Source: Thermincola sp. (GTDB lineage: Bacteria; Bacillota; Thermincolia; Thermincolales; UBA2595). From it: a stretch of DNA of 33,169 nt. Below are positions 1,676 to 20,524 of this stretch, piece by piece. A program made the translations under genes and the position numbers. How positions within the stretch are numbered: position 1 is the first letter of the stretch; each line of letters opens with the position of its first letter. The DNA lies in NCBI GenBank assembly GCA_022735835.1, contig DYZU01000026.1, forward strand, positions 1 to 33,169. Direction: 5' to 3'. The notes under the pieces are model-generated. The model worked only from the letters and a program-made list of their open reading frames with translations. It did no database searches and was not told the origin of the DNA.

Positions 1676-1704
1676 ATTATACTACTTATACTCCCGGATG
1701 TGAA
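1676..1704 (-). promoter_or_regulatory. Sigma-A promoter of malic enzyme gene
   Basis: Minus-strand TTCACA (1699-1704), a 17-bp spacer and a perfect TATAAT (1676-1681), about 70 bp before the GTG start. It gives malic enzyme a housekeeping-type promoter separate from the sigma-54-type promoters upstream. Read-through from sdhB is also possible, because no clear terminator lies between. Confidence 0.7.
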
Positions 1705-1738
1705 TCCTGTCACGTTTAGCTTTTCTTAAGCATATTTC

Positions 1739-2488
1739 CTACCTGTTAAACCATCTCCCGATGCTGTACAGGGTTGTGTCCCTGTTCAGCTTGGCTATAG
1801 CAGTGGTCAACGGAATCTTTTTGGGGCATGCTTCTATGCAGTTTTGGGCATTTCCGCAATCGGTAATACCTCCGTCACCCATGATCGTTTCCAGGCGCGC
1901 TTCCTTATCCATCGCCCCGGTGGGATGATTGTTAAAGCGAAGCACCTGGGCCAGCGGCGCCGGTCCGATAAAACTGCTCCTGGCGTTAAAGTTGGGACAG
2001 GCCTCGTAACAGCAACCGCAGGTCATGCAACGCGAAATTTCATACATCCAGCGGCGTTCCTTTTCCGGAACTCTCGGTCCGGGTCCCAAATCAAAGGTTC
2101 CGTCAATGTTAATCCAGGCTTTAACCTTTTTCAGGTGCTCGAAGAGCACGCTGCGGTCAACCTTCAGATCCCTGATTACCGGAAACTTGCTCAAGGGTTC
2201 CAGGGTAATTACCTGCGAAGGCATCTTATCTATCAAAGCGCTGCACGCCTGCCTGACATTACCGTTAATAATCATGGTGCAGGCTCCGCAAACTTCTTCC
2301 AGGCAAGAGCAATCCCATGTGACAGGAGTAGTCTTTTGCCCCTGAGCGTTAACCGGGTTCTTGCGGATTTCCATCAAAACCGAGACCACATTCATGTTGG
2401 GTTTATACGGCACTTTAAATTCTTCCCACCGCGGGGACTCATTCGGACCGTTTTGTCTTTTGATTTTCAGGTGAATAAACTCCGCCAC
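1739..2488 (-). CDS. sdhB: Succinate dehydrogenase/fumarate reductase iron-sulfur subunit
   Basis: A 249-residue electron-transfer subunit. The N-terminal plant-ferredoxin-like domain has the [2Fe-2S] motif CSCLEEVCGAC plus a later C. The C-terminal part has CMTCGCCYEACP and CGNAQNCIEACP for the [4Fe-4S]/[3Fe-4S] clusters. It passes electrons between the SdhA flavin and the SdhC haems on the membrane. It ends the sdhCAB set and starts 16 bp after the sdhA stop. In a propionate oxidiser it would work in the succinate-to-fumarate direction with menaquinone, which needs reverse electron transport; that direction is inference. Confidence 0.96.
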   Translation of the reverse strand: MAEFIHLKIKRQNGPNESPRWEEFKVPYKPNMNVVSVLMEIRKNPVNAQGQKTTPVTWDCSCLEEVCGACTMIINGNVRQACSALIDKMPSQVITLEPLSKFPVIRDLKVDRSVLFEHLKKVKAWINIDGTFDLGPGPRVPEKERRWMYEISRCMTCGCCYEACPNFNARSSFIGPAPLAQVLRFNNHPTGAMDKEARLETIMGDGGITDCGNAQNCIEACPKKIPLTTAIAKLNRDTTLYSIGRWFNR

Positions 2489-2504
2489 TTGTCATCCCCC
2501 CTGA

Positions 2505-4241: not shown

Positions 4242-4257
4242 AATTCCGCCCCCTCTT

Positions 4258-4878
4258 TTAAGCCGCCAGGCCTATCAGGCCCGCTGTACCAATGGCGGTC
4301 AGGATTATAAACAGGATAGTGCAAATGGTCTGCATAGTTTTCTGGGCTTTGGGCCCGATGGTGATTCCCCAGCTTATGGCAAAGGTATAGAGGCCGTTGC
4401 TGAAATGGAACACTGCGGCCAACAGCCCTATGAAATAAATAATGAAGAACAGCGGCTGGGATAAAATATTGTTCATAAATTCATAAGAAATTTCAATGCC
4501 GGCAAAGGCCCTGCCGATCCTGGCGGTATAAGCGTGGTAGGCTACATAAACGAAAGTCACTATGGCAGTTACACGCTGCAGGTAAAACATATAATTGCGG
4601 TAATATTTGTATTGCAGGACATTGTTTTGGGCCAGGTAAACATAATACAGGCCCAGGATTGTGTGGAAGGCCAGCGGAATGGCGATAAATATTATTTCTA
4701 TCCAGACCAGAAACGGTATGTTTTGAAAAGCTTCAACTCTTTGGTTATAGGCTTCCGGCCCTCCCAGGGCAAACGAATTGGTAATCAGGTGTTCCAGCAG
4801 GAAAACTCCGATTGGGATTAGGCCGGTCAGGGAATGCAACTTTCTGATCAGGAAATTATAGTTTTTGATAAACCCCAT
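4258..4878 (-). CDS. sdhC: Succinate dehydrogenase cytochrome b558 membrane subunit
   Basis: A 206-residue integral membrane protein with about five hydrophobic helices (for example IPIGVFLLEHLI, IEIIFIAIPLAFHTILGLYYVY, PLFFIIYFIGLLAAVFHFSNGLY and a C-terminal helix ending GLIGLAA). Several conserved His lie in the helices and are candidate haem ligands. This is the single-polypeptide di-haem anchor of the Bacillus type, so no sdhD is expected and none is seen. It starts the sdhCAB set, 36 bp after the fumarase beta stop, with an AGGAGGG-type ribosome site. Confidence 0.93.
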   Translation of the reverse strand: MGFIKNYNFLIRKLHSLTGLIPIGVFLLEHLITNSFALGGPEAYNQRVEAFQNIPFLVWIEIIFIAIPLAFHTILGLYYVYLAQNNVLQYKYYRNYMFYLQRVTAIVTFVYVAYHAYTARIGRAFAGIEISYEFMNNILSQPLFFIIYFIGLLAAVFHFSNGLYTFAISWGITIGPKAQKTMQTICTILFIILTAIGTAGLIGLAA

Positions 4879-4914
4879 TTGTTCTACCCTCCTTCAAGAA
4901 GTCCCGTAGGCTTA

Positions 4915-5469
4915 CTATTTCACCTGATATTGCTGCCGGCCCTCCTGATATAAGTCTCCACCATGAGCATCATTGACCACGATTACCGGAAAATTCTCGA
5001 CTTCCAGGCGGTAAATCGCCTCCGGTCCAAGTTCCGGGTAAGCGATAACTTCACATTTGGTGATGCGTTTGGATATAAGGGCCGCTGCCCCACCCGTGGC
5101 GGCAAAATAGACAGCCTTGTTTTTCTTGATCGAATCAAGCACCTCTTTTGACCGGAGCCCCTTGCCGATCATCCCTTTCAGTCCCAGATCAAGCAGTGCC
5201 GGGGTATAGGCGTCCATGCGCCCGCTGGTGGTCGGTCCGGCCGAACCGATAACCTGACCCGGCCTGGCCGGGGAAGGTCCCACGTAGTATATGATTTGCC
5301 CCCTGATATCCACGGGCAGTTCTTTTCCTTCCCTGATTAATTCAAAAAGCTTTTTATGAGCTGCGTCTCGGCCGGTTAAAATTACCCCGTTCAGAAAAAC
5401 CGTGTCCCCGGCCCGGAGTTTATCGACAATTTCATCCGTTAAAGGCGTTGAAACCGTATATTCAGCCAT
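4915..5469 (-). CDS. Fumarate hydratase class I, beta (C-terminal) subunit
   Basis: A 184-residue subunit of the oxygen-sensitive [4Fe-4S] fumarase, interconverting fumarate and malate. Recognisable family segments are PARPGQVIGSAGPTTSGRMD, AVYFAATGGAAALISKRI and ELGPEAIYRLEVENFPVIVVNDAHGGDLY. The ORF track extends to 5520, but ATG at 5469 follows GGAGGGG with good spacing and gives the family N-terminus (MAEYTVSTPLTDE). It lies 14 bp after the alpha subunit stop, so the two are surely co-translated. Confidence 0.93.
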   Translation of the reverse strand: MAEYTVSTPLTDEIVDKLRAGDTVFLNGVILTGRDAAHKKLFELIREGKELPVDIRGQIIYYVGPSPARPGQVIGSAGPTTSGRMDAYTPALLDLGLKGMIGKGLRSKEVLDSIKKNKAVYFAATGGAAALISKRITKCEVIAYPELGPEAIYRLEVENFPVIVVNDAHGGDLYQEGRQQYQVK

Positions 5470-5483
5470 CTGTTCCACCCCTC

Positions 5484-6326
5484 CTATAAAACAATGGTTT
5501 TGTGCCTGGCAGCGTGACAATTGATATTTACCGCCACCGGCAGGCTGGCAATATGCGCAGGGAAAATTTCAATATTTACGGCCAGGGCAGTAGTTGTCCC
5601 GCCCAGCCCCTGGGGGCCGATCCCCAGTTTATTTATTTCTTCCAGCAGTTCAGCCTCCAGCGCTGCTATGGAAGGGTCGCTGTGGCGCTGGTTCAAAGGT
5701 CTGAGCAATGCTTGCTTGGCCAGAAGGGCAGCCTTTTCCATAGTCCCTCCGATACCGACTCCCACTACTATGGGTGGGCAGGGGTTGGACCCCGCCTTAT
5801 CAACAGTCTCAATAACAAATTCCTTGACCCCTTCAACCCCCTGGGAAGGCTTCAGCATCTTCACCCCGCTCATATTCTCGCTGCCCCCCCCCTTGGGAGC
5901 AATGGTTATCTTCAAGTTATCCCCTTTTACCAGAGAAGTATAGATGATAGCCGGGGTATTATCTCCGGTGTTTTTCCGCTCCAGGGGATGACCAACTATT
6001 GATTTCCGCAGGTACCCTTCCATATATCCCTTGCGGACACCCTCGTTGATGGCATCATCCAGCAAACCGCCTTCAATTCTCAGGTCCTGGCCGACTTCCA
6101 CGAAAAAGACGGCAAACCCGGTATCCTGGCACATCGGCATGCGTTCCTTCCGGGCAATTTCGGCATTTTCAATCAACTGGTTGAGAATACTGATGCCCAG
6201 CGGAGACTTTTCCTTTTTCAGGTTTTCCTTAAACGCCTCCAATACGTCTTCCTCCAGGTAGTAATTAGCTTCCTGGCATAAGCCGCTGACTACATTGACA
6301 ATATCTTCGTATTTAATTGTTTTCAT
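5484..6326 (-). CDS. Fumarate hydratase class I, alpha (N-terminal) subunit
   Basis: A 280-residue [4Fe-4S] subunit. CQDTGFAVFFVEVG, SNPCPPIVVGVGIGGT and the C-terminal NINCHAARH supply the likely cluster cysteines, and GGGSENMSGVKML is a family signature. It pairs with the following beta subunit to form the class I hydratase that links the succinate dehydrogenase product fumarate to malate. It is the first gene after a sigma-54-type promoter 34 bp upstream, so fumarase and sdhCAB may form a second, separately boosted half of the pathway operon. Confidence 0.94.
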   Translation of the reverse strand: MKTIKYEDIVNVVSGLCQEANYYLEEDVLEAFKENLKKEKSPLGISILNQLIENAEIARKERMPMCQDTGFAVFFVEVGQDLRIEGGLLDDAINEGVRKGYMEGYLRKSIVGHPLERKNTGDNTPAIIYTSLVKGDNLKITIAPKGGGSENMSGVKMLKPSQGVEGVKEFVIETVDKAGSNPCPPIVVGVGIGGTMEKAALLAKQALLRPLNQRHSDPSIAALEAELLEEINKLGIGPQGLGGTTTALAVNIEIFPAHIASLPVAVNINCHAARHKTIVL

Positions 6327-6359
6327 CTGAACCCCCCCGTATTTTTTCTAATAATTAAT

Positions 6360-6374
6360 GCAATTTTCATGCCA
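6360..6374 (-). promoter_or_regulatory. Sigma-54 (-24/-12) promoter of fumarase-sdh genes
   Basis: The minus strand reads TGGCATGAAAATTGC, matching the -24/-12 consensus TGGCAC-N5-TTGC at nine of ten fixed bases with exact spacing. It ends 34 bp before the fumarase alpha ATG. The gene just upstream encodes a sigma-54 activator with an intact GAFTGA motif, which strengthens the call. Confidence 0.8.
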
Positions 6375-6486
6375 ATCTTCAAAGCCTGAATTTTCAAGGA
6401 TTTTCGGGCCATAGGTTAAAATTACTATTATAAATTTTAAAACAGCTTAAAGGGTAAAAAGAAGGAGCTACTTACATCCACAAGTA

Positions 6487-6520
6487 GTTCTAATTTTTTT
6501 AAGAACGGGTTCTAATTTTT
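6487..6520 (-). promoter_or_regulatory. Candidate activator-binding repeats upstream of fumarase promoter
   Basis: A 12-bp direct repeat, GTTCTAATTTTT on the plus strand, occurs at 487-498 and 509-520 of the 6 kb line, 22 bp apart (two helical turns). An inverted AAGAAC lies between, making AGAAC-CC-GTTCT a short dyad. It lies about 138-171 bp upstream of the expected sigma-54 start and overlaps the end of the regulator gene. That is a usual position for an enhancer-type site. Confidence 0.45.
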
Positions 6521-8230
6521 ATAACACTCCTGGTAACCGTATTTTTTCATTTTATTATATAAGGTGGCCAACGAAATTTTCAGGGTCGAGGCCGCCTGTT
6601 TTTTCCCTTCCAGACTGACGCCGAACTCTTCCAGGGCTCTCTTGATGAGTTTCTTCTCCATTTCTTCTATGGGTTCAAGGTAGTCGGGCTTCCAGCCGAC
6701 GGGATCCCTGGTTTTTCCAGTCAACTGTCCGATGTGCATGTGGGTTACAATGTCTTCTTCTTTATCCATTGACACTATCGCCCGCTCCAGGATATTTTCC
6801 AGCTCCCGTACATTTCCGGGCCAGTGGTAAGCATAAAGCCGGTCAAAAGCCCCCTGGGAAATCCCTTTAATTTTTTTGCCCAATTTCCGTTCAAACTGGG
6901 TAATAAAATGATTGACCAGGAGATTTAAGTCTTCTTTGCGTTCCCGCAGAGGTGGTATATGAAGTTCTACGACATTAAGCCTGTAGAACAGGTCTTCCCT
7001 GAAATCTCCTTTCTTTACCATTTCCTTCAGATCCCTGTTAGTGGCGGCAATAACCCTGACATCAACCTTAATGGTTTCCGTTCCCCCGATTCTTTCTATC
7101 TCTTTTTCCTGCAAAACCCTCAGCAGTTTGGCCTGTAGCGACAGGTTCATATCCCCTATTTCATCCAGAAAAATCGTGCCCCCCTGGGCCAGTTCAAATT
7201 TACCCAGCTTCGTCTTGGTGGCCCCGGTAAAAGCCCCCTTTTCGTGGCCGAAGAATTCGCTTTCCAGCAGGGTCTCCGGAATAGCGGCACAGTTAACCTT
7301 AATAAAGGGCTTCCCGTTACGGCTGCTGGCCCGATGAAGGGCATGGGCAAAAAGCTCCTTGCCGGTGCCGCTTTCACCGTAAATTATTACCGTAGAATCG
7401 CTCAGGGCCGCCTTTCTGGCCATTATTTTGGCCTCCACCATGCCCGCGGCCTGGCCGATAATGTCATCAAAGGAATATTTGCTGCTGCTGACCTGGCCCA
7501 AACGGTCATGAAGGTCCTGAATTATATGGCAGCTCTTTTTTAACTCATCCATAAGTTTCATTATATCTGTTATCGGTTGAAAAGATACAACCGCCCCGTA
7601 AATGTTCCCGTCGACAATAATAGGACAGGCATTTGAAATCACTTCGGCATTCGAACCGCCCACCCGGGTCCTGAGCCCGATTACAGGCCTTTGGGTCAGG
7701 ATAGCCTGAGCCAGGGCGCCCTCGGGTGAGACCTCAAAAATGTTCCGGCCGATCCGGGTTTCTTCCGGGATGCCGGTCACTCTGCTGAAAGCCGGGTTAA
7801 CATATTTTATGACTCCGTTGATATCGGCTACTTCAATCGCTTCCTGGACAGAGCTCAGAATCGCGGACAGTTCGCCCTTAATTTTTTTTATTTCCAGAAG
7901 TTTCTCTTTTTCCTCCAGAATGGTGATCATTAAATCGGCTGCCTGGGCTTCCATAACAGCTGTTTCTCCGTGTTTGGCATGGTGTATTCTGCTTTGCACC
8001 TCAGTCTGGCCGGTGGCTTCTATGATGACATCAATTCCGGGTTTTCTGATAAGTTCGATAAAATCCGTGGTGTTGAACACACCGTCTCTTTTTGCCAGCA
8101 GCATCCCCGGGGCATGAGGGTTTTTGTCAGCAATGCCAACGATATTTATCATGTCCATAGTCTTTAATATTCTGTACAATGTGCACCCACCGGCGCCCGC
8201 TCCTACGATGGCCACATTTACTATTGCCAT
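6512..8230 (-). CDS. Sigma-54-dependent activator with Rossmann and PAS domains (MmcZ-like)
   Basis: A 572-residue transcription activator. Residues 1 to about 105 form an NAD(P)-binding-like Rossmann domain (VAIVGAGAGG at 7-15, IIEATG near 70). A PAS domain follows at about 120-220. The AAA+ domain has Walker A GESGTGKE (285-292), GAFTGA (332-337) for sigma-54 contact and Walker B FLDEIGD (354-360). A Fis-type helix-turn-helix ends the protein (about 535-570). There is no response-regulator receiver domain. The start is ATG 8230, eight bases after GGGAGG; the ORF track's 8251 start is less likely. It sits inside the operon, 25 bp after the GTPase gene and before a sigma-54 promoter. It probably controls the cluster in response to a metabolite or redox signal (inference). 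Confidence 0.9.
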   Translation of the reverse strand: MAIVNVAIVGAGAGGCTLYRILKTMDMINIVGIADKNPHAPGMLLAKRDGVFNTTDFIELIRKPGIDVIIEATGQTEVQSRIHHAKHGETAVMEAQAADLMITILEEKEKLLEIKKIKGELSAILSSVQEAIEVADINGVIKYVNPAFSRVTGIPEETRIGRNIFEVSPEGALAQAILTQRPVIGLRTRVGGSNAEVISNACPIIVDGNIYGAVVSFQPITDIMKLMDELKKSCHIIQDLHDRLGQVSSSKYSFDDIIGQAAGMVEAKIMARKAALSDSTVIIYGESGTGKELFAHALHRASSRNGKPFIKVNCAAIPETLLESEFFGHEKGAFTGATKTKLGKFELAQGGTIFLDEIGDMNLSLQAKLLRVLQEKEIERIGGTETIKVDVRVIAATNRDLKEMVKKGDFREDLFYRLNVVELHIPPLRERKEDLNLLVNHFITQFERKLGKKIKGISQGAFDRLYAYHWPGNVRELENILERAIVSMDKEEDIVTHMHIGQLTGKTRDPVGWKPDYLEPIEEMEKKLIKRALEEFGVSLEGKKQAASTLKISLATLYNKMKKYGYQECYKN

Positions 8231-8255: not shown

Positions 8256-9233
8256 TTACTCTTGAAAAGGGTTCATATCCCCTTTGAAACCACCGTCAAA
8301 AATTCGTTTGAGAATAGTTGTGGCAGCATAATACGGATCAATAGAGTCTTTTTCCAATTTGTTCATTAATTCACTTACAAAACTGTCCACAAGCGCATCC
8401 CGGTTAAACCATTCCTTTAGCAATGTAATAATGATTTCCGTTACTTCGTCACCGGCACGCTGACGTCTCTTATCATTTAGTTTACCGCTCTCAACCAGAT
8501 ATGCAAAATGTTTTTTAATGGTTTCCGCCAGTTCTTTGACTCCGTGGCGGTTGATGGTCACTGTTTGGATTACCGGTGGACACCAGGGGGTACCGGGACA
8601 GTTCGTTTGGAGCATTACCTCCACCTCCCGGGCCAGCCTCCTGGCCCCGGGGAGATCAGCCTTATTTACGGCAAAAATGTCGGCAATCTCCATGATTCCA
8701 GCCTTGATTGTCTGAATACTGTCACCGGCCCCCGGTGTTAAAACCACAACGGTGGTATCAGCCAGTTTCATAATTTCCAGTTCTGATTGGCCCACCCCGA
8801 CCGTCTCGACCAGAACCAGGTCCTTTCCGCTGGCGGCTAAAACCTTGACCGCCTCCCTGGTGGCTGGAGCCAGCCCCCCGACATTGCCTCTTGTGCCCAT
8901 GCTGCGGATAAAGACTCCGGGATCGGTAGCGTGCTGCTGCATTCTGATCCGGTCACCGAGCAGCGCGCCTCCGGTAAAAGGGCTGCTGGGGTCAACAGCA
9001 ATGATACCTACTGTTAGACCCTGACGGCGGTATTCCAAGGTAAGTTGGTCTACCAGCGAGCTCTTGCCCGCCCCCGGAGACCCGGTTATTCCTATAACAT
9101 GGGCTTTGGAAGCTGACGGACGCAAACCGGCCAGCAGTTGATATCTTTCAGGACTCCGATTTTCGACCAGTGTTATAGCTCTGGCTACAGCCCGCCGGTC
9201 TCCGGCCAGAATTTTTTGCAACAGCTGTTCCAT
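8256..9233 (-). CDS. meaB: MeaB/ArgK-family GTPase, methylmalonyl-CoA mutase chaperone
   Basis: A 325-residue G3E-type P-loop GTPase. Walker A is GSPGAGKS (about 51-58), followed by the switch region AVDPSSPFTGGALLGDRIRM, DLVLVETVGVGQSE and the guanine-binding VNKAD. The family loads and protects the adenosylcobalamin cofactor of methylmalonyl-CoA mutase using GTP hydrolysis. Its place in the same operon as both mutase subunits supports that role over the older ArgK (arginine transport kinase) label. ATG 9233 is chosen because AGGTG precedes it closely; the tracked GTG (9242) would include the ribosome site. Confidence 0.92.
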   Translation of the reverse strand: MEQLLQKILAGDRRAVARAITLVENRSPERYQLLAGLRPSASKAHVIGITGSPGAGKSSLVDQLTLEYRRQGLTVGIIAVDPSSPFTGGALLGDRIRMQQHATDPGVFIRSMGTRGNVGGLAPATREAVKVLAASGKDLVLVETVGVGQSELEIMKLADTTVVVLTPGAGDSIQTIKAGIMEIADIFAVNKADLPGARRLAREVEVMLQTNCPGTPWCPPVIQTVTINRHGVKELAETIKKHFAYLVESGKLNDKRRQRAGDEVTEIIITLLKEWFNRDALVDSFVSELMNKLEKDSIDPYYAATTILKRIFDGGFKGDMNPFQE

Positions 9234-9331
9234 AATTATCACCTGCTTTTTTGTAAAGCGCCGGCACGGACGGAGCCGGGAGCGGACAGGGCGGCCAGGC
9301 TAGGACCAGCGTGGCCGCGGTTTGGATGCGT

Positions 9332-11287
9332 TTAACCGCGCATCTTTTCTATAGCTTCCCTGATTTCTCCAATGGAAGCTTCTTCCTCAATGGTGGATAA
9401 GTCTCCCAGTTCCGCGTTCATCCAAAGGGTGCGCATGACGCGACGCATAATCTTACCGCTCCTGGTTTTGGGCAGCATTTTAACGAACTGGATGTCCCGT
9501 ATCACCACGATGGGCCCCATGGTATTGCGTACATGGTTGATCAGTTCTTTCGTCAACTCTTCGGAGGGTTCATAGCCGGATTTTAAGACCACGAAGGCGC
9601 AGGCCACCTCGCCGCGCAGATCGTCGGGCACGCCTGAAACACCGCTCTCGGCGACAGCCGGGTGGGAGATCAGCGCGTTTTCAACCTCAATCGTGCCGAT
9701 TCGGTGGGCAGCTATTTTGATTACTTCGTCAGAGCGGCCGGCAAACCAGATGTAGCCGTCTTCGTCCATGGTAGCTGCGTCACCGCAGTAATAGGATCCC
9801 TTGGTGGCCGGGTACTTCTCCCAGTAAGCGCTCTTATAGGTTTCCGGGTCGCCCCAGAGGGTTGACACCAGGCCCGGGAAAGGCCTCTTGATCAGGACTG
9901 CGCCCTTCTCGCCGATGGGTGTTTTTTCACCGGTCTTGTCATCAACGATTTCGGCAACGATGCCCGGGACCGGGATTCCCGCGGAACCCGGCTTGATCGG
10001 GATCATTCCCAGGCCGTACGGGTTGGCGAAAATGGGGCCGGAAGTCTCTGTCTGCCACATGTGGTCAATCACCGGGATACGGTTTTCAAAAACTTCCTCC
10101 TGGAGCCACTGCCAGGCAGCCGGGTTAAGCACCTCGCCGGCGCAGAATATCCGCTTGACCGTGCTTAAGTCGTGTTTTTTGGCCTGATCGAGACCCAGTC
10201 TCATCAAGCCGCGCACGCCGGTGGGGGATAGCCACATGGCGGTAACTTTATATTTCTCCACGATGTCCCACCACATATCCTTCCGCGGGTAATCGGGCGT
10301 TCCTTCATAAAGGACAGAGGTGCAGCCGTGGAGCAGCGGGCCATAGGTGTTGTAGCTGTGGCCGACAATCCAGCCAATGTCGGAAGTGCAGAACCAGATA
10401 TCGCTTTCTTCAAGACCGTAGATCCATTTGGCCATGTTGTATACGTACATCTGGTAGCCGCCGTGTTTTTGCACGGTTACTTTCGGCTTGGCCGTGGTAC
10501 CGGACGTGGGGAGCATGAAGAGGGGTTCGTTCGATTCCATGATTTCCACAGCCGAACTTTGTCCCTCTCCACCGGCTAAAAATTCATCCCAGAAGATGTC
10601 CCGGCCGGCTTTCATCGTGGGGTTGGCGCCTTTTTTCAGCACGACGACTTTCTTGATCTGTTCAGGCGGGCACCTGTCCAGACCTTCGTCCACGATTTTC
10701 TTCAGATTTACCGGGTTGCCCCGCCGCAAATTCTCATCCTGGACGATCACGTACTGGGCGCCGGAGATATTGACCCGGTCCGCCACCGCCCCTGCGGAAA
10801 AGCCCGCGAAAATGACGACATGGATTGCCCCGATGCGGGCGCAGGCCAGCATTGTTGCTATCGAATCCACGCTGGTGGGCATATAGATGACTACCCGGTC
10901 GCCTTTTTTCACGCCCATGCCGCGCAGGGCAGCGGCAATTTTTTGTACCTTGTAAAGCAGTTGGGCGTAGGTCACCGTATGAACCTCGCCGGTCTCGCCC
11001 GACTCGGCGATAAGGGCCGCGCGCCCGGCGCGCCCCCTTTCTATATTATAATCCAGGCAATTGTAACAGATGTTGGTAAGGCCGCCTTCGAACCACTTAA
11101 ACGTTGGGTACTCCCAGGTAAAGACCTTATCCCACTTTTTAAACCAGTGGATGTCATGGGAAGCTTTAATTGCCGCATCTTCCCAGAAGCCCTCCGGGTC
11201 TTCCTCCGCCCATTTCATGAAGGCTTTTACGTGCGGCGGGATTAGACCTGTCCCCGCTTTCTGAAATCCCATAGAATATTCTCCCAT
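9332..11287 (-). CDS. AMP-forming acetyl/propionyl-CoA synthetase
   Basis: A 651-residue acyl-CoA synthetase of the Acs/PrpE family, activating a short-chain acid to its CoA ester through an acyl-AMP. The motifs are the A3 loop LPTSGTTAKPK, MWQTETSGP, YCGDAATMDEDGYIWFAGRSDEVIK and the C-terminal PKTRSGKIMRR, whose Lys is the usual acetylation site. Length matches acetyl-CoA synthetase. The A3 loop has Ala where nearly all family members have Gly (TSGTTGKPK). In this operon propionate is the logical substrate, but acetyl-CoA use cannot be excluded. It lies 20 bp after the biotin carrier gene. Confidence 0.92.
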   Translation of the reverse strand: MGEYSMGFQKAGTGLIPPHVKAFMKWAEEDPEGFWEDAAIKASHDIHWFKKWDKVFTWEYPTFKWFEGGLTNICYNCLDYNIERGRAGRAALIAESGETGEVHTVTYAQLLYKVQKIAAALRGMGVKKGDRVVIYMPTSVDSIATMLACARIGAIHVVIFAGFSAGAVADRVNISGAQYVIVQDENLRRGNPVNLKKIVDEGLDRCPPEQIKKVVVLKKGANPTMKAGRDIFWDEFLAGGEGQSSAVEIMESNEPLFMLPTSGTTAKPKVTVQKHGGYQMYVYNMAKWIYGLEESDIWFCTSDIGWIVGHSYNTYGPLLHGCTSVLYEGTPDYPRKDMWWDIVEKYKVTAMWLSPTGVRGLMRLGLDQAKKHDLSTVKRIFCAGEVLNPAAWQWLQEEVFENRIPVIDHMWQTETSGPIFANPYGLGMIPIKPGSAGIPVPGIVAEIVDDKTGEKTPIGEKGAVLIKRPFPGLVSTLWGDPETYKSAYWEKYPATKGSYYCGDAATMDEDGYIWFAGRSDEVIKIAAHRIGTIEVENALISHPAVAESGVSGVPDDLRGEVACAFVVLKSGYEPSEELTKELINHVRNTMGPIVVIRDIQFVKMLPKTRSGKIMRRVMRTLWMNAELGDLSTIEEEASIGEIREAIEKMRG

Positions 11288-11307
11288 TCACAAATACCCC
11301 CTATAAT

Positions 11308-11700
11308 CTAGTCAATGATCATTAGCACCTCTCCCCCCGCAACGGTTTGGCCTTCCTGTACTCTGATCTCCCTGATAACACCCCCTTTTTTGGCAGTAAT
11401 TTCATTTTCCATTTTCATGGCTTCCAGAACTATGACCACATCTCCGGTTTTTACCGTGTCTCCTTCCTTAAACTTTACGGCCAGGACCACTCCCGGCATC
11501 GGAGCAGTAACACTGCTCCCGTCACCCTTGGCCCCGCTTGCAGTTGCCGGTTTGGACGGCAGCTGCACTATTGAAGGCCGCGATGAAACAGGCCTGGTGA
11601 CTACGCCTTTAGGTTCCACTGCCTGTAAAGCTGTCTCCCTGACTTCTTCAACTGTTACTATATAACTCTGGTTATTCACGGTTATCTTGAGTTTTCGCAT
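11308..11700 (-). CDS. Biotin carboxyl carrier protein
   Basis: A 130-residue carrier. A short N-terminal segment resembling the carrier subunits of decarboxylases (MRKLKITVNNQSYIVTVEE) is followed by a Ser/Pro/Ala-rich linker at about 40-60. The biotinyl domain has VTAPMPGVV and the biotin site EAMKMEN. It carries CO2 between the biotin carboxylase encoded just upstream and the carboxyltransferase. The neighbours overlap or are 12-20 bp apart, so the subunits are probably made together. Confidence 0.93.
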   Translation of the reverse strand: MRKLKITVNNQSYIVTVEEVRETALQAVEPKGVVTRPVSSRPSIVQLPSKPATASGAKGDGSSVTAPMPGVVLAVKFKEGDTVKTGDVVIVLEAMKMENEITAKKGGVIREIRVQEGQTVAGGEVLMIID

Positions 11701-11712
11701 TTTAACCCCTCC

Positions 11713-13317
11713 CTATCTTATTAACCCCCGGCCTAGCATGAGGTGGCTTAAACCCAGTAACCGCCAGGGAGTAAAATCATCTCTTGGCGCCTCCCGGCCG
11801 GGCTGGATATCAGCAATGGCCAGGTTTTGGCCATGACTGTTGCCGTAAGCCGCCACCGCCGCTCCGATAACGGCTACCGTTTCCGGGCTAACGGCTGATC
11901 CCGGCCTGGTTCCCCGGTTTTTCATGAGGGTCTCTTTAATTCCGGTCAGATTAAGAATTCCGGCGCCGTCATCTTCTCCGCCTGGCTGTTCGATATGTTT
12001 CTTGATAAAGTTGGTATAAACCTCTCCTTTTAAAAATGCTTCGTTTTCCAGCACCAGCAGGTGGAAAGGGATAGTTGTCGGAACACCCTCGATAACAAAT
12101 TCCCGCAAAGCCCGGCGCATTCTGGCAATAGCCTCCTGCCGGTCCTTCCCCCACACTATCAGTTTGCCTATCATGGAATCGTAATAGGGTGATATATGGT
12201 ATCCCGGGTACACGGCGCTGTCGGTCCGTACTCCAAAGCCGCCCGGAGGTCGGTAAAAGGTAATCTGTCCGGGGCTGGGCATAAAGTTCTTTTCCGGGTC
12301 TTCGGCATTAATGCGGCACTCAATGGCATGGCCCCTGATCACCACATCTTCCTGTTTAAAGCTCAAGGGTAAGCCGGCAGCCACTCTGATTTGCTCCTTC
12401 ACTATATCTATCCCGGTTATTTGTTCGGTAACCGGATGCTCTACCTGCACCCGGGTGTTCATTTCCATAAAATAGAAGTCCCCGTCTCCGGTGAAGAGAA
12501 ACTCGATCGTCCCGGCCCCCACATAATTTACCGCCCGGGCCGCCGAAACAGCCACCTGGCCCATTTTTTCCCGCTGTTCAGGGGTCAGGACCGTGGAGGG
12601 GGCCTCTTCGATAAGCTTTTGGTTGCGCCGTTGCACCGAACAGTCCCGTTCACCCAAATGGACAACGTTTCCATGACTGTCGGCCAGGATCTGAAACTCT
12701 ATATGACGGCATTCATCCAGGAATTTTTCGATATATACTTCCGATGAACCGAAACAGGAGAGGGCTTCCGACTTGGCGCTTTTCACCGCGTCGAGAATTT
12801 CTTTCTTGTTGCCGGCCACCCGCATCCCCCGGCCGCCTCCCCCGGCGGCTGCTTTAATCAGTACCGGGTAACCTACTTTGGCCGCAAACTTGACGGCGTC
12901 CGCGTCACTTCGCAGGGGACCGTCGGACCCCGGCACAACAGGGACTCCGGCTTTGACCATGGTATCCCTGGCCACGGCCTTGTCACCCATAGCCTTAATG
13001 GCCTCCGGAGACGGGCCGATAAAGGTGATTCCGTTTTCCGCACATTTCCTGGCAAACTCCGGGTTTTCCGATAAGAAACCGTATCCCGGGTGAATGGCAT
13101 CGGCGTGTGCTTCCCTGGCTACCTCCAGGATGGTTTCCTGGTTGAGGTAGCCCTTGGGGGAACCTATATCATATGATTCATCGGCCATTTCCACATGCAG
13201 GGAATCTTTATCAACTTCGGAATGAATGGCCACGGTCTTTATGTCCATCTCCTGGCAGGCTCTGATTATCCTCACCGCGATCTCCCCGCGGTTCGCTATA
13301 AGTATCTTCTTAAACAT
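11713..13317 (-). CDS. Biotin carboxylase with unusual C-terminal extension
   Basis: A 534-residue biotin carboxylase: [19 protein letters not shown] at the N-terminus, ATP-grasp loop [63 protein letters not shown] and ECRINAEDP. It carboxylates biotin using ATP and bicarbonate. The family usually ends near residue 450. Here about 80 further residues include [17 protein letters not shown] and [14 protein letters not shown], which resemble the soluble tail of small delta subunits of biotin-dependent decarboxylases (MmdD/OadG-like). With the neighbouring carboxyltransferase and carrier it would form a propionyl-CoA carboxylase. Confidence 0.92.
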
Positions 13318-13330
13318 TGCGCCACCTCCT

Positions 13331-14875
13331 TTACAGAGGAATATTGCCGTGTTTCTTGCCCGGTCTCGCTTCTCTCTTGTTGGCTAACATGTTCAGGCTT
13401 TGAATTATCCTGGCCCTGGTGTTCCAGGGTTCTATAACATCATCCACCATGCCCTTGGAACAGGCTATATAAGGATTGGCAAATTTCTCCCGGTATTCGG
13501 TAATTTTCTGCATCCTGACTTCCTCGGGGTTTTCCGCATTGTTGATATCATCGCGGAAGATGATATTGGCAGCCCCCTCAGGACCCATAACGGCAATTTC
13601 GGCATTAGGCCAGGCCAGGGCAATATCCGCCCCGATGGACCTGCTGCACATGGCTACATATGCGCCCCCGTAAGCCTTTCTCAAAATAATGCTGATTTTG
13701 GGTACGGTGGCTTCCGAATAAGCGTATAAAATCTTGGCCCCGTGCCGGATAATACCCCCGTATTCCTGTCCTGTTCCGGGTAAAAACCCGGGTACGTCCA
13801 CAAATGTAATCAGGGGAATATTGAAAGCATCGCAAAACCTGACAAAACGCGCTATCTTGTCGGACCCGTTGATATCCAGGCAGCCGGCCAGGATGCGGGG
13901 CTGGTTGGCAACTATACCCACGGACCGGCCGTCAACCCTGGCAAAACCGGTAACTACATTTTCCGCAAAGTAACGGTGTACCTCCAAAAGCTCGCTGTTG
14001 TCAACGATGGCCCTGATGACATCCCGCACATCATACTGCTTGTTGGGGCTTTCCGGTACAATCCTGTGAATTTCCCCGTCAAACACCGGTTCCCGCGGTT
14101 CAACCCTGGGTGGGTCAGACAAATTGTTTTGCGGGATGAATTCCAGCAAATTCCTGATCATATGCAGGCACTCTTCCTCATCCTGGGCCACAAAATTGGC
14201 CACCCCGCTGGTCTGGTTATGGGTCATGGCTCCACCCAGTTCCTCGGTGGACACGTCCTCACCCGTAACAGCCTTGATAACCTGGGGACCGGTAATGAAC
14301 ATCTGGCTGGTATTGGCCACCATGAATATGAAATCAGTAATAGCCGGCGAATAGACCGCTCCCCCGGCACAAGGACCCATAATAGCCGAAATCTGTGGGA
14401 TCACCCCGGAAGCAAGAGTATTGCGGAAAAAAATCTCCCCGTAAGCGCTTAACGCCGAAACCCCTTCCTGGATGCGGGCTCCGCCGGAATCATTGAGCCC
14501 TATGAAAGGCGCTCCCACTTTCATGGCCAGATCCATAACCTTGCAGATTTTCAGCGAGTGTTTTTCACCCAGGGCCCCGCCATAGGTGGTGAAATCCTGG
14601 GAAAAGAGGTAAACCAACCGGCCATTGATGGTACCATATCCGGTGACCACCCCTTCGCCCAATTGTTCGTCGCCTTCTTTGGCAAAATCAGGCGCCGGAC
14701 CCTGGACAAACATGTCCATTTCGACAAAACTCCCCGGGTCCAGTAACAGCTCGATTCTTTCCCGGGCTGTCAGTTTTCCCGCCATGTGCTGGCGCTGAAT
14801 CCGGCGCTCGCCCCCGCCGATTTTTACTTTTTCCCGGCGGGCTTCCAGTTCCTGTAATTTATCTTCGATAGTCAT
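13331..14875 (-). CDS. Acyl-CoA carboxyltransferase (propionyl-CoA carboxylase beta / methylmalonyl-CoA decarboxylase alpha)
   Basis: A 514-residue two-domain crotonase-fold carboxyltransferase. N-terminal signatures include [15 protein letters not shown] and [13 protein letters not shown] (oxyanion region). In the C-terminal half there are [32 protein letters not shown] and [11 protein letters not shown]. It moves carboxyl between carboxybiotin and propionyl-CoA, giving (S)-methylmalonyl-CoA. The family covers PCC beta, MmdA and 12S transcarboxylase, and the sequence alone does not separate these. Its ATG overlaps the epimerase stop (TAATG), indicating coupled translation. Confidence 0.94.
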
Positions 14876-15285
14876 TACTTACCGCCTCCCCGTTCGCATA
14901 ATTCGATAAGGGTTCCATAAGTCGCCTTGGGGTGGAGAAAAGCAATCCTGGCGCCTCCGGCGCCCTTGCGGGGAACCTCATCAATAAGCCGTACCCCTCT
15001 GGCCTTCAGTTCCTCCAGCTTGGTATCGATGTCAGATACCCTTAAAGCAATATGCTGGATTCCTTCACCCCTGGATGCTATAAATCTTGCGATAGGCCCG
15101 TCGGGGTCGGTCGATTCCAGAAGCTCTATTTCGCTGTCTCCTATTGGCAGAAAAGCCACCTTGACTTTTTGCTCCTCGACAATCTCCGTTTCGCTGATTT
15201 TAATTCCCAGGACATCCTCATACAGTTTACGGACGGCTTCAATGCTGTTGACGGCTATTCCGATGTGGTCAATCCTGCTTATCAT
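14875..15285 (-). CDS. mce: Methylmalonyl-CoA epimerase
   Basis: A 136-residue protein of the vicinal-oxygen-chelate fold interconverting (S)- and (R)-methylmalonyl-CoA. Metal-ligand segments are RIDHIGIAV near the N-terminus, GIQHIALRVSD in the middle and TLIELCE at the end. Length is typical. It links carboxyltransferase (S form) to mutase (R form), and sits exactly between those genes: 12 bp after the mutase small subunit, overlapping the carboxyltransferase start. Confidence 0.95.
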   Translation of the reverse strand: MISRIDHIGIAVNSIEAVRKLYEDVLGIKISETEIVEEQKVKVAFLPIGDSEIELLESTDPDGPIARFIASRGEGIQHIALRVSDIDTKLEELKARGVRLIDEVPRKGAGGARIAFLHPKATYGTLIELCERGGGK

Positions 15286-15297
15286 GTGTGATCCTCC

Positions 15298-15699
15298 TCA
15301 GCGCCTGACATTCTTTTCGATGAACTCCAGCATCGTTTTTATCGGTGTTCCCGGCGTAAAGATTTCCGCAATCCCTGACTCTTTTAAAAACGGGATGTCG
15401 TCCTCCGGAATAACCCCGCCCCCCAAAACAGTAATGTCATCAATCCCTTCAGCCCTGAGTAACTCCATTACCCTGGGAAACAGGTAATTATGGGCTCCGG
15501 ACAGGCAGCTTAAGGCAATGATATCCACGTCTTCCTGGATGGCAGCCTGCACTATCTGTTCCGGGGTCTGCCGCAGCCCTGTGTATATAACCTCCATCCC
15601 GGCATTGCGAAAGGCCTGGGCAATCACTTTCGCCCCGCGGTCATGGCCGTCCAGCCCCGGTTTTGCGATCAATATGCGAATTGGGTTTGACATCTGCAT
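15298..15699 (-). CDS. Methylmalonyl-CoA mutase, cobalamin-binding subunit
   Basis: A 133-residue B12-binding Rossmann-like subunit. DGHDRG gives the DxHxxG motif whose His ligates cobalt, ALSCLSGAH the SxL motif and VLGGGVIP the GG motif. It is the separately encoded C-terminal domain of a split mutase and follows the catalytic subunit by 9 bp. The split is an established arrangement in archaea and several Firmicutes and is not a frameshift: each part has its own ribosome site and intact ends. Confidence 0.95.
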
Positions 15700-15708
15700 C
15701 CCACCTTC

Positions 15709-17382
15709 CTAGAAAATAGCCCTCTGCTGGTATTCGCCGAAAACTTCCCGCAGGACGTCACAGATCTCGCCGAGGGTTGCGTAAGCCTTCACAGCTTCCA
15801 GAATGGGGGGCATCAAATTATCCGTTCCGCCGGCCGCTTCCTTTAACCTGGCCAGCGCCCTGTCAACCTCGGCTTGGTTTCTCTGCCGCTTCAGAGCCTC
15901 CAATTTTATGCGCTGGTTTTCTTCCACCACCGGGTCTACTTTGAGCAGGTTGAGAGGAGTTTTTTCTTCGGTCTGGAACTTGTTAACCCCGATTACAACC
16001 CGGTCCCCGGATTCAATTTCCATTTGGTAATGATAAGCGCTGTCCTGAATCTCCATCTGTTGGAAACCTTCTTCAATAGCCCTGACGGCGCCGCCCATTG
16101 CTTCGATTTTGTTGATGTATTCCATGGCGGCTTTTTCCATTTGGTTTGTCAAAGACTCCACAAAATAAGATCCGCCCAGCGGGTCCACCGTATCTGTAAC
16201 CCCGGTCTCATAAGCTATAACCTGCTGGGTCCTTAAAGCTATCAGTACGGAATCCTCGGAAGGCAGGGCCAGCGCCTCATCCCGCGAATTGGTGTGCAGG
16301 GATTGGGTGCCGCCCAGAACGGCGCTTAAGGCCTGGAAAGCAACACGCATAATGTTAGTGTCGGGCTGCTGGGCAGTGAGAGTACACCCGGCCGTCTGGG
16401 TATGGAAACGTAGCATCTGGGATTTGGGATCCCTGGCTGCAAACCGTTCTTTCATGATTCTGGCCCAGATGCGGCGTGCCGCTCTGAATTTGGCTATTTC
16501 TTCGAAGAAATTGAGATGGGCATTAAAGAAGAATGACAGCCTGGGAGCAAAATCATCAACGCTTAAACCGGCTTTAATGGCGGCTTCCACGTAAGCAATA
16601 CCGTTGGCAATCGTAAAAGCAATCTCCTGAACCGCGGTGGAACCCGCTTCCCTGATGTGGTAACCGCTTATGCTGATGCTGTTCCAGTTGGGCAGATTCC
16701 TGGAACAGTAGCCGAATATGTCCGTAACCAGCCTCATGGAAGGTTCCGGCGGAAATATATAAGTACCCCTGGCTATGTACTCCTTTAAAATGTCATTTTG
16801 GATGGTGCCCGAGAGTTTCTCGGGAGCAACTCCCTGTTTTTCCGCCACGGCTATGTACATGGCCAGCAGGATTGCCGCCGGCGAGTTAATGGTCATGGAA
16901 GTGCTTACCTTATCCAAAGGTATCCCGCTGAAAAGGGTTTCCATGTCCTGCAAGGAATCTATGGCAACCCCGACCTTGCCCACTTCGCCGTAGGACAGCG
17001 AATGGTCGGAGTCATAACCTATCTGAGTCGGCAGATCAAAAGCCACACTTAGACCGGTCTGCCCCTGTTCAAGTAAATATTTAAACCGCCTGTTGGTTTC
17101 TTCCGCGGTACCGAAGCCGGCATACTGGCGCATGGTCCATAAGCGGCCGCGGTACATGGTGGGCTGTACCGCCCGGGTATAGGGGTATTCTCCCGGTAAT
17201 CCCAAATCCTCAAGATAATTTAAATCAGCCGTGTCCAGCGGTGTATAGACCCTCTGTACCGGAATCCCGGAATGAGTCAGGAATTCCTGTTTCCGTTCAG
17301 GTAAACGGGGCAGTACTTTTTGTTGTATTTTTTGTTCCCACTGCTCCATAGTACTGGCTAAATCTTTGTTGTTCCGTTCCAT
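15709..17382 (-). CDS. Methylmalonyl-CoA mutase, catalytic subunit
   Basis: A 557-residue TIM-barrel subunit of the B12 mutase, interconverting (R)-methylmalonyl-CoA and succinyl-CoA. The family active-site segments are visible: [24 protein letters not shown], with the Tyr that methylmalonyl-specific enzymes use; [48 protein letters not shown]; and [17 protein letters not shown]. It lacks the B12 domain, which is the next gene. Tyr in TMY and Arg in ARGTY favour methylmalonyl-CoA over isobutyryl-CoA; that mapping is by eye. It lies 28 bp after sucD. Confidence 0.94.
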
Positions 17383-17410
17383 CTCGGTTCCCCCTTTTGT
17401 CCTGCCTGGT

Positions 17411-18304
17411 TTAAATAACCTTTCTCGTGCCGCTCCGGCTTTCCATTGCCTTCCGCAACAGGTCCGGTACCTCCCACGGCAGCTCTGCCACTATGGCTCC
17501 GGCCGCCTCCAGGGCCGTTACTTTACCTCGATAAGTGCCCGTTCCCCGTTCTATGATTGCTCCGGCATGCCCCATCCTTTTTCCGGGAGGAGCGCTCCGC
17601 CCGGCCAGGAAGGCTACTACCGGTTTGGTCATTTGTTTGATATATTCCGCTGCCACCTCTTCAGCATTGCCGCCTATTTCACCCACCAGAATGACACCTT
17701 CAGTTTCCGGGTCATCCTCGAAACGTCTCAGCACATCCACAAAAGAGAGGCCTACCACTCTGTCACCCCCGAGTCCGACTACCGTTGACTGGCCTATTCC
17801 CTCAATTGACAGGCTGTTGGCAATCTCATAGCTTAAAGTGCCGCTCCGGGCCACTATTCCGACATTTCCGGGTTTATATATCCGGTTTGGCATAATCCCG
17901 ATCTTGCACTTGCCGGGAGAAATCAAGCCAAAAGTATTGGGCCCTACAATAGTAACACCCTTGTCACGGGCATAAGCCATAATGTCTATAGCATCATGAA
18001 CAGGGACATGCTCTGTAATAATTACAATGGTCTTAATTCCGTTTTCCATGTTTTCAAAAGCCGCATCCTTGACCATGCGAGCCGGAACAAAGAAAATGGT
18101 TGCATCGATATCCGTTTTTTCCAGAGCTGCCGCTACGGTGTCGAAAACAGGTACCCCGTGAACTTCCTGGCCCCCTTTTCCGGGAGAAACTCCGCCGACG
18201 ATTTTTGTGCCGTATTCCAGCATCTGCCGGGTATGAAACTGGCCCTGATTGCCGGTAATTCCCTGGACCAGAACTTTTGTGTTTTCGTCAATGATAATTG
18301 CCAT
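17411..18304 (-). CDS. sucD: Succinyl-CoA synthetase alpha subunit
   Basis: A 297-residue subunit. [13 protein letters not shown] is the CoA-binding loop, [19 protein letters not shown] is a family signature, and [13 protein letters not shown] contains the phosphorylated His. With SucC it interconverts succinyl-CoA and succinate with formation of ATP or GTP, the substrate-level phosphorylation step when propionate is oxidised. It begins 14 bp after sucC. Confidence 0.96.
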
Positions 18305-18318: not shown

Positions 18319-19431
18319 CTAACCCGCCTTGGCAATCTCGACAGCTTTGGCCGCAGCTTCTTTAATATTGTTGTAACTATCGATCCCTATCTCTTTTAGG
18401 ATCGCGATGCCTTCCTTTTCATTGGTGCCGCTGAGCCTTATTACCACGGGCACCTGTATACCCATGCTGTTCTTCACCTTGGCAAAAGCCCTGGCTACTT
18501 CATCACACCGGGTAATACCCCCAAAAATATTGACCAGAATCACTTTCGGTTTGGTGGAAATCAATATCTCCAGGGCCTGAGCGGTGGCCTCGGAATCGGC
18601 CCCGCCCCCGGCGTCCATAAAATTTCTCGGGTTGCCGCCAAAATGCTGGATAATGTCCAGGGTCGCCATGGCCATTCCGGCGCCATTTGCCATTACGGCA
18701 ATATTTCCATCCAGTTCCACGTAAGAAATGCCTATGTCATGAGCCTTTTTTTCCAAAGCCGTGCGTTCTTCCACCACCGGCGTTCCGGCCGGGTAGCGGA
18801 AGTAGGCCACGTCATCAATGTTGATTTTCGAGTCGGCAGCTATTAAGTGTTCGCCGCTCACCACAAGAGGGTTTATCTCCACCAGCTCACAGTCATATTT
18901 CTTAAAAACCAGGTAGACCTTCATAATGATATCGGCCGCTTGTTTGGCCAACGGTCCGGTCAATCCGAGACGACGGACCACTTCCCTGCAAAAATGCGGC
19001 ATTATTCCTACTTCAGGGTCTATATGTTTTTTGATTATTTGATCAGGCGGGACATCTTCAATGTCCATGCCGCCGCTGGCGGAAGCAATTAATACCGGCT
19101 GCTTTCGGGCCCCGTCCAGAGCAATGGAAAGGTAGAACTCCCGGTCGATTCGTATCTTTTTTTCCACCAGAAGTTTTTCTATTTTCAAACCTTTAAGGTC
19201 CCTGCCTAAAAGCTCCCCGGCGTAAATTCTGGCTTCCTCGGGGCTTTTGGCGAACTTTATGCCCCCTGCCTTGCCCCGGCCGCCGGACAGAATTTGTGAC
19301 TTGATCACTACCTCTCCCAGTTCGGCAGTGATTTCAGCCGCTTCCTCGCTGTTGCAGGCTACCCGCCCCGGCGGTATATCAATCCCATGCCGGGTGAAGA
19401 TTTCTTTTCCCATATATTCAAACAACTTCAT
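18319..19431 (-). CDS. sucC: Succinyl-CoA synthetase beta subunit (ADP-forming type)
   Basis: A 370-residue ATP-grasp subunit. It starts MKLFEYMGKEIFTRHGIDIPPG and contains KSQILSGGRGKAGGIKFA, LVEINPLVV, NGAGMAMATLDIIQHFGGNPRNFMDAGGGA and LVNIFGGITRCDEVA. It is the first gene of the methylmalonyl-CoA cluster, 53 bp after a near-perfect sigma-54 promoter. Nucleotide specificity (ADP or GDP) is not certain by eye. Confidence 0.96.
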   Translation of the reverse strand: MKLFEYMGKEIFTRHGIDIPPGRVACNSEEAAEITAELGEVVIKSQILSGGRGKAGGIKFAKSPEEARIYAGELLGRDLKGLKIEKLLVEKKIRIDREFYLSIALDGARKQPVLIASASGGMDIEDVPPDQIIKKHIDPEVGIMPHFCREVVRRLGLTGPLAKQAADIIMKVYLVFKKYDCELVEINPLVVSGEHLIAADSKINIDDVAYFRYPAGTPVVEERTALEKKAHDIGISYVELDGNIAVMANGAGMAMATLDIIQHFGGNPRNFMDAGGGADSEATAQALEILISTKPKVILVNIFGGITRCDEVARAFAKVKNSMGIQVPVVIRLSGTNEKEGIAILKEIGIDSYNNIKEAAAKAVEIAKAG

Positions 19432-19483
19432 CTACCGCAGCTCCTCTCAATAGTTTTATAGCGGGGTTTAATCAGTGACATGA

Positions 19484-19498
19484 GCAACTTCTGTGCCA
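19484..19498 (-). promoter_or_regulatory. Sigma-54 (-24/-12) promoter of the methylmalonyl-CoA operon
   Basis: The minus strand reads TGGCACAGAAGTTGC, identical to the consensus TGGCAC-N5-TTGC at every fixed base. It ends 53 bp before sucC ATG, and the expected start is near 19473. No good sigma-A promoter is evident in this gap, so the operon appears to depend on sigma-54 and an activator, most simply the one encoded in the operon. Confidence 0.88.
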
Positions 19499-19595
19499 AT
19501 ATTTAGTGAAAAAGGGTACACGGTTAAATTTTCGGGTCAACGGTCGAATTCTGGCCCTAAGTTGTCTAAACCCCCGGAAAAACAGACACAACGGG

Positions 19596-19649
19596 ATGTT
19601 CTTGCAAATTTATGCACGCAATGTTTTGCATGGTTTGCATGTTCTTGCA
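19596..19649 (-). promoter_or_regulatory. Candidate enhancer sites upstream of sucC promoter
   Basis: Plus-strand ATGTTCTTGCA occurs twice, at 19596-19606 and 19639-19649. Between them are TGCACGCAATG, TTTTGCATGG and TTTGCATG, so TGCA/TGCAA boxes recur about every 10 bp. The array lies roughly 123-176 bp upstream of the expected sigma-54 start, a usual activator distance. The remaining 19500-19595 stretch shows no gene or other clear signal. Confidence 0.5.
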
Positions 19650-19650
19650 G

Positions 19651-19693
19651 GCAAAAATAAGGGTCTATCCCAGTTACTTATGGGATAGACCCT
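19651..19693 (-). terminator. Rho-independent terminator after P-loop/Asp23-like gene
   Basis: Perfect 12-bp stem AGGGTCTATCCC / GGGATAGACCCT with a 10-nt loop, followed on the minus strand by TATTTTTG. It lies 6 bp past the stop of the upstream gene and separates it from the sucC operon, so the operon must start at its own promoter. Confidence 0.9.
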
Positions 19694-19699
19694 GGATTA

Positions 19700-20524
19700 T
19701 CAGCGGTCTCCGGTCTCTATCTTGCCGACAACAATATCGACAGCCACAATATTTAAACCGGTCAGGTATTCTATTTTTTCTTTCAAAAGTTTTTGGATCT
19801 CCTTAATAAGGGATGGGATATAAACACCGTATTTAACCTTAACCGTCAGATTCAAACGCACTCCCCCCGGGTTTTGTTCAACAATGGCTTTTCCCGGCCT
19901 TACCGGCAATTGCGACTCCCGGATAATTCTCTTGGCCAAGGCAATTATGGCATTATCGGCGATACTTATTTTACCCAGCAGGAAATAGGTGGGCCTGACC
20001 AGGGTTTTTTCCACGGGTTTCTGTGGTTTCGGCCGGTTTTTCAACCTTAAAAACACGTGCACCGGGTCAGTCAACAACCCGGAGAAAGTTTTTCTTACTT
20101 CCGCCGTAGGAACGGGGATGACGTGTTTTCCGTAAACATTACGCATATGCTGTGCTGTCCTGATATCCTTTTCCGTGGCAATGTCCTCGATAGTGATTAT
20201 TTTCTCGGGCTCAGGCAGGTTTAAGCGGCCGGCAATCTTCTTGACCATACCCATTGAAGTTCCAATGATTAGGACCCTTTCCGGGCTTTCCTTTTCAATT
20301 AATTCAATGACGCGGTTGGCGTGGACTTGATCGCTGAACAAAGCCGTTTTTACCGCCCCCAGCCGCGTAGGCTGGCTTTTGGCCGAGATGCCGCCCAAAA
20401 TCCTGGTACCTTTTATCAACAATCCGTCATCGATGATCAAATCAATATTAAATTCGCTGGCAACAAAAGCGGCCCGGTGGCTTTTTCCGGTACCGCTGGA
20501 TCCCACAAGCGCATATATCTCCAT
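19700..20524 (-). CDS. P-loop ATPase-like protein with C-terminal Asp23-like segment, unknown function
   Basis: A 274-residue protein. It starts with a clear Walker A (LVGSSGTGKS, residues 6-15), followed by a Rossmann-like stretch (IDLIIDDGLLIKG, ERVLIIGTSMGM). Residues about 185-265 (YFLLGKISIADNAIIALAKRII ... VRLNLTVKVKYGVYIPSLIKEIQKLLKEKIEYLTGLNIVAVDIVVG) look like an Asp23/Gls24 (alkaline shock) domain. No specific function is assigned. The start ATG 20524 follows GGAGG; the ORF track's longer N-terminus covers non-coding leader. It stands alone between two terminators. Confidence 0.8.
   Translation of the reverse strand: MEIYALVGSSGTGKSHRAAFVASEFNIDLIIDDGLLIKGTRILGGISAKSQPTRLGAVKTALFSDQVHANRVIELIEKESPERVLIIGTSMGMVKKIAGRLNLPEPEKIITIEDIATEKDIRTAQHMRNVYGKHVIPVPTAEVRKTFSGLLTDPVHVFLRLKNRPKPQKPVEKTLVRPTYFLLGKISIADNAIIALAKRIIRESQLPVRPGKAIVEQNPGGVRLNLTVKVKYGVYIPSLIKEIQKLLKEKIEYLTGLNIVAVDIVVGKIETGDR

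Follow-up and report, generated by a model that had tools for sequence, protein, structure and literature searches.

Predicted sigma-54 control of the methylmalonyl-CoA operon in Thermincola sp.: a TGCA-N6-TGCA array and a possible two-step activator cascade

In Thermincola sp., the genes of the methylmalonyl-CoA pathway lie in a long operon beginning with sucC, within a 33,169-nucleotide stretch of DNA (hereafter the window; contig DYZU01000026.1). A sequence-only reading had placed a sigma-54 promoter and an enhancer-like array before sucC, and had proposed that a whole central catabolic operon would depend on sigma-54. This raises two questions: is the promoter real, and which activator would act on it? 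The features that bear on these questions are as follows (window coordinates).

19660–19693, minus: intrinsic terminator of the upstream por/Asp23-domain unit; 13-pair stem and T tail
19636–19649: predicted activator dyad I, TGCA-N6-TGCA, exact; at −151 to −153 from TGGCA in all five genomes that carry the cluster
19617–19630: predicted activator dyad II, degenerate here as CGCAATGTTTTGCA; G007 and the three Thermincola-type genomes have it intact
19603–19616: predicted activator dyad III, TGCA-N6-TGCA, exact; shifted in the Thermincola-type genomes
19483–19499, minus: sigma-54 −24/−12 element TTGGCACAGAAGTTGCT, from consensus score and conservation; predicted transcription start near 19472
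18319–19431, minus: sucC, first gene of the operon (Pfam ATP-grasp_2 and Ligase_CoA)
8256–18304, minus: sucD, methylmalonyl-CoA mutase large and small subunits, epimerase, carboxyltransferase, biotin carboxylase, biotin carrier, AMP-forming acyl-CoA synthetase and meaB (Pfam)
6512–8230, minus: EBP-1, sigma-54 activator, last gene of the operon; Rossmann-like N-terminal domain, PAS, AAA+ with GAFTGA, Fis-type HTH (Pfam, sequence, synteny)
6488–6524: candidate EBP-1-type sites, TTCTAA-N3-TTAGAA with 1–2 mismatches, upstream of the fumarase promoter; kept in 5/5 genomes and also found beside EBP-1 orthologs elsewhere
6359–6375, minus: second sigma-54 −24/−12 element TTGGCATGAAAATTGCA, before fumarase (start 6326); score 30, kept in 5/5 genomes
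373–6326, minus: fumarase A/B, succinate dehydrogenase C/A/B and malic enzyme, the second sigma-54 unit (Pfam)

The sucC promoter and its operon

The element before sucC, TTGGCACAGAAGTTGCT, has the −24 GG/−12 GC spacing of a TTGGCAY-N5-TTGCW-like promoter. By a simple consensus measure it scores 30 out of 31, the G after TTGGCAC being the sole deviating base, and the match claimed by the sequence-only reading stands as near-perfect. It does lie just upstream of sucC, although the distance from its −12 GC to the ATG (19431) was counted as 52 bp and not the 53 bp given earlier. In the window, TGGCAC-N5-TTGC occurs once, against 0.08 expected from first-order Markov shuffles; for the extended form TTGGCAC-N5-TTGCW, 0.007 matches per window are expected from shuffles. 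Across the genome, the 15-mer by itself is not unusual (eight matches, against three for the reversed control), and the case for the promoter therefore depends on position and conservation more than on sequence alone.

The family sample comprised nine genomes (approximately 28 Mb). The cluster was found in synteny in five of these, from two genera, one of which is taken as Thermincola: the present genome, G007 of the same genus, and G004–G006, which are Thermincola-type. Over the part compared, the EBP-1 protein of G006 is identical to that of a genome recorded as Thermincola ferriacetica. Upstream of sucC, all five retain the −24/−12 element, TGCA dyads and a terminator-like hairpin, while the intervening sequence has diverged; judged by eye, the hairpins of the relatives differ in sequence and occupy the same position. 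The genome, which is 75% complete, encodes RpoN (PF04552, E=2e-64), the gene whose presence had been proposed as a check. That the sucC element is a genuine sigma-54 promoter is almost certain.

Downstream of this promoter are 11 co-oriented genes, sucC through EBP-1, in agreement with the earlier estimate of 10 or more; the order from sucD to meaB is identical at L140–L143, and a scan of the 11-gene operon revealed no strong minus-strand terminator. The terminator previously predicted upstream of the promoter region is present at 19693–19660. The 11-gene operon may depend on sigma-54 alone. Between EBP-1 and the fumarase promoter lies a hairpin flanked on either side by T-rich tails (6464–6491), possibly a bidirectional terminator that closes the sucC operon.

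A third −24/−12 element, TTGGCATGAAATTTGCA (20656–20640), precedes a P-loop/Asp23-domain gene, with a terminator-like hairpin (20585–20559) between the two. This element has no TGCA dyad array and is kept only in G007; it was left aside as a part of the sucC circuit.

The TGCA array and EBP-2

The array consists of a row of TGCA-N6-TGCA inverted repeats, 95–152 bp upstream of the −24/−12 element, an arrangement of the kind expected for activator dyads approximately 100–250 bp from a sigma-54 promoter. On the minus strand it reads TGCAAGAACATGCA-AACCA-TGCAAAACATTGCG-TGCATAAATTTGCA, comprising two exact dyads and one degenerate dyad. There are five TGCA boxes, with offsets of 10, 9, 14 and 10, and the impression of boxes roughly every 10 bp is borne out. 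The two exact dyads are the only ones in the 33-kb window, and shuffles give P ~5e-5 for at least two TGCA-N6-TGCA dyads within the 269-bp gap. The 11-mer ATGTTCTTGCA, reported earlier as a repeat, does occur twice, 43 bp apart (19596 and 19639), but G007 has a single copy; the repeat appears incidental and was rejected as the functional unit. On this point the sequence-only reading needs correction, and the predicted unit is the dyad. Across the five genomes, the distance to the promoter is constant for dyads I and II, and dyad III lies approximately 10 bp, or one helical turn, closer to it in the Thermincola-type genomes.

A comparison across related syntrophs had been suggested. The genomes that share the −24/−12 element and the dyads are Thermincola-type bacteria, whereas more distant mmc clusters are arranged differently: in the 20 nearest mmc loci outside the two genera, the TGCA array was not seen at sucC, and the idea that the mmc operons of other families share it was rejected.

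The dyads recur beside the gene for another activator, EBP-2 (L145:384–2132), situated on a different contig (G000:C187). This protein contains two PAS domains, AAA+ and a Fis-type HTH (Pfam), as well as the GAFTGA motif also found in EBP-1. Downstream are genes for a GNAT protein, ptb, buk and vorABG. EBP-2 has the domain layout of a BkdR-like regulator and adjoins ptb/buk and a 2-oxoacid oxidoreductase, as a BkdR-like regulon would; the nearest NCBIfam model is PrdR, with a match below its cut-off. Of the six family genomes examined, all have exact dyads upstream of the GNAT/ptb genes and five also have them upstream of EBP-2; in L159 none was found at the latter position.

In the present genome, a dyad combined with a −24/−12 element is found at only two places, sucC and EBP-2/ptb, and the dyads were accordingly rejected as a general feature of its sigma-54 promoters. 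The nine family genomes were searched for a dyad 26–86 or 86–146 bp before TGGCAY-N5-TTGC, giving 11 loci: five at sucC, five at EBP-2/ptb and one in G004. The reversed control gave none. The single additional locus (G004:C26:42635–42739) is near another sigma-54 activator gene.

Across 399 genomes of the phylum, a related pattern gave matches in 66 genomes, against three control matches, and 30 of the loci were read over approximately 3 kb each. Fourteen of the 30 are directly downstream of an EBP-2 relative (a protein matching EBP-2 better than EBP-1), and most are near ptb, buk or vor. Others precede genes for Glu/Leu/Phe/Val dehydrogenase (leucine dehydrogenase-type), alanine dehydrogenase or acyl-CoA dehydrogenase. 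In other families, the dyads with −24/−12 elements that precede Glu/Leu/Phe/Val dehydrogenase genes (L236, L238, L240, L242, L243 and L246) are likely to mark further members of EBP-2-type regulons. At least three of the 30 loci (L247–L249) lie inside a reading frame, and these matches are probably due to chance. The boxes at sucC and at the phylum loci alike are mostly spaced by 6, 10 or 15; of these, only 6 was imposed by the selection of loci.

What the sequences show directly is the promoter with its dyads, the retention of both in the relatives, and the co-occurrence of dyad and −24/−12 element with EBP-2 and its genes. This association of motif and gene neighbourhood points to TGCA-N6-TGCA as the predicted EBP-2 site.

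EBP-1, the fumarase unit and the choice of activator

EBP-1 is a probable ortholog of MmcA, an assignment based on synteny. Its orthologs across the phylum adjoin mmc or sdh operons. Residues 1–90 are predicted by AlphaFold2 to adopt a Rossmann-like fold (block pLDDT ~83–95, with moderate overall confidence), which matches NAD-binding oxidoreductases over approximately 100 residues and is followed by the PAS domain. A Rossmann-like NAD(P)-type domain in this position would be uncommon as the sensor of a sigma-54 activator. Elsewhere in the genome, a 301-residue relative of EBP-1 (L144:2266–3171, contig G000:C3) has the same N-terminal region, PAS and a nearly identical HTH helix, SLATLYNKLKRY, without AAA+. 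Split matches of this kind are found in most family genomes, including some in which no SucC match turned up. The protein could occupy EBP-1 sites without activating.

The sequence-only reading had proposed one sigma-54 operon. Its promoter and upstream array at sucC stand, but the cluster contains another conserved sigma-54 promoter (6375, for the fumarase–Sdh–malic enzyme genes) with a different enhancer, and therefore consists of two sigma-54 units. TTCTAA-N3-TTAGAA, present at 6488–6524, is absent from the sucC region. In Desulfosporosinus (L061–L070), EBP-1 orthologs immediately precede a sigma-54 promoter of the succinate dehydrogenase genes at which TTCTAA/TTAGAA sites are present, and the loci of other families that have a good −24/−12 element have TTAGAA/TTCTAA boxes alongside, not TGCA. 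EBP-1 appears, from these associations, to recognise TTCTAA-N3-TTAGAA. Five loci (L193, L195, L201, L203 and L204) have no high-scoring −24/−12 element in the short gap after the EBP-1 ortholog, and sigma-54 control of every mmc operon is therefore not claimed.

We consider it probable that the sigma-54 promoter and two to three TGCA-N6-TGCA dyads drive the 11-gene operon, with EBP-2 as the most likely activator, and that EBP-1 then activates the fumarase–Sdh–malic enzyme unit. Since the product of an operon driven via EBP-2 would in turn activate the 6375 unit, this would constitute a two-step cascade.

It is unlikely that the sucC promoter, though sigma-54-dependent, is instead activated by EBP-1 from within the operon, in simple positive autoregulation. 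EBP-1 is the nearest activator, in other families its ortholog is directly upstream of the mmc operon at ten loci (in the present operon EBP-1 comes last), and activators are usually near their targets (PMC6615313). The motif comparison disfavours such a role: the sites associated with EBP-1 are those of the fumarase promoter and not of sucC, and TGCA dyads accompany EBP-2 even in G001 and G008, where no SucC match was found. The HTH recognition helices also differ, being SLATLYNK in the EBP-1 group and TRSLYYK in the EBP-2 group, and a tree separates EBP-1 from EBP-2 and its TGCA-adjacent relatives, with a weak node (0.47) joining EBP-2 to the more distant TGCA-adjacent activators.

We regard as very unlikely a reading in which the dyads are bound by another sigma-54 activator, or form a site common to several with similar HTH domains. 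The 75%-complete genome does encode seven clear or strong sigma-54 activator domains, five of them besides EBP-1 and EBP-2, and dyads with −24/−12 elements are widespread in the phylum; against this, the combination is confined in this genome to sucC and EBP-2/ptb. The presence of dyads upstream of EBP-2 itself, where no high-scoring −24/−12 element was found, indicates that the site may act away from sigma-54, but a role for the dyads as operators of a repressor or other regulator, with a sigma-A promoter or read-through as the main source of operon transcripts, is scarcely credible given the upstream terminator, the retention of the −24/−12 element in 5/5 genomes and a scan of the minus strand (19432–19700) that flagged no sigma-A-like promoter, although a weak site would slip through.

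For the cascade led by EBP-2, we infer binding, signal and activation along the following lines. EBP-2 would bind the dyads approximately 100–150 bp upstream of the sucC promoter and loop to RNA polymerase–sigma-54 at 19499–19483, where ATP hydrolysis would open the promoter. The last gene of the operon would yield EBP-1, which would act at the TTCTAA-N3-TTAGAA sites to activate the fumarase–Sdh–malic enzyme unit. This would place the methylmalonyl-CoA pathway in a branched-chain amino acid fermentation regulon. Vor oxidises branched-chain 2-oxoacids to acyl-CoAs, and the isoleucine and valine routes can give propionyl-CoA; the methylmalonyl-CoA operon would handle the propionyl-CoA so formed.

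On the best reading of these data, a sigma-54 regulon for branched-chain amino acids took over the methylmalonyl-CoA operon, and the gene for the next activator lies within that operon. There is an even chance that in one family a BkdR-like amino-acid activator replaced the ancestral MmcA-type activator of the operon, and that the old activator, with its NAD(P)-type Rossmann sensor domain, is now a member of the operon and controls fumarase–Sdh–malic enzyme as the second step of the cascade. The locus would then exemplify a whole catabolic operon exchanging its activator with sigma-54 retained. It also suggests a tie between propionate/methylmalonyl-CoA metabolism and branched-chain amino acid fermentation, and provides a predicted binding motif for each of two sigma-54 activator groups, TGCA-N6-TGCA and TTCTAA-N3-TTAGAA, which recur across a phylum of anaerobes.

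Comparison with known systems

The direct precedent is the mmc cluster of Pelotomaculum thermopropionicum, in which, as here, methylmalonyl-CoA pathway genes are gathered in one cluster, reportedly with a regulator gene (MmcA). The present cluster likewise combines these pathway genes with a PAS/sigma-54 activator gene. In the ten more distant clusters of the mmc/MmcA type, the EBP-1 ortholog is upstream of the operon, whereas here the activator gene is not upstream and sucC has a different enhancer. The P. thermopropionicum cluster is upregulated more than 4-fold in syntrophic coculture (PMC6046458); the mmc/MmcA work of Kosaka et al. (2006) is cited in that paper and in PMC4148979.

Bacillus BkdR, with two PAS domains, AAA+ and HTH, activates the adjoining sigma-54-dependent ptb and functions in isoleucine/valine degradation (PMC4428206). 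EBP-2 resembles it in domain layout and in the adjoining ptb, a likeness of layout and neighbourhood. The Bacillus bkd operon, as that paper describes it, has no methylmalonyl-CoA operon in it; in the present genome, the ptb-type site is also present at a distant 11-gene methylmalonyl-CoA operon.

Sigma-54 regulons have also been described in Clostridiales, for example that of ZypR with tyrB-iorAB-butK, for which the reported motif is TGT/ACA (Nie et al., 2019; PMC6615313). As here, that survey describes one-component PAS activators with several sites 100–250 bp upstream and control of amino acid fermentation; it includes no methylmalonyl-CoA operon among the regulons and, in the main text, no TGCA motif. 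The general kind of system is already known; the change of enhancer and the predicted cascade are the new part.
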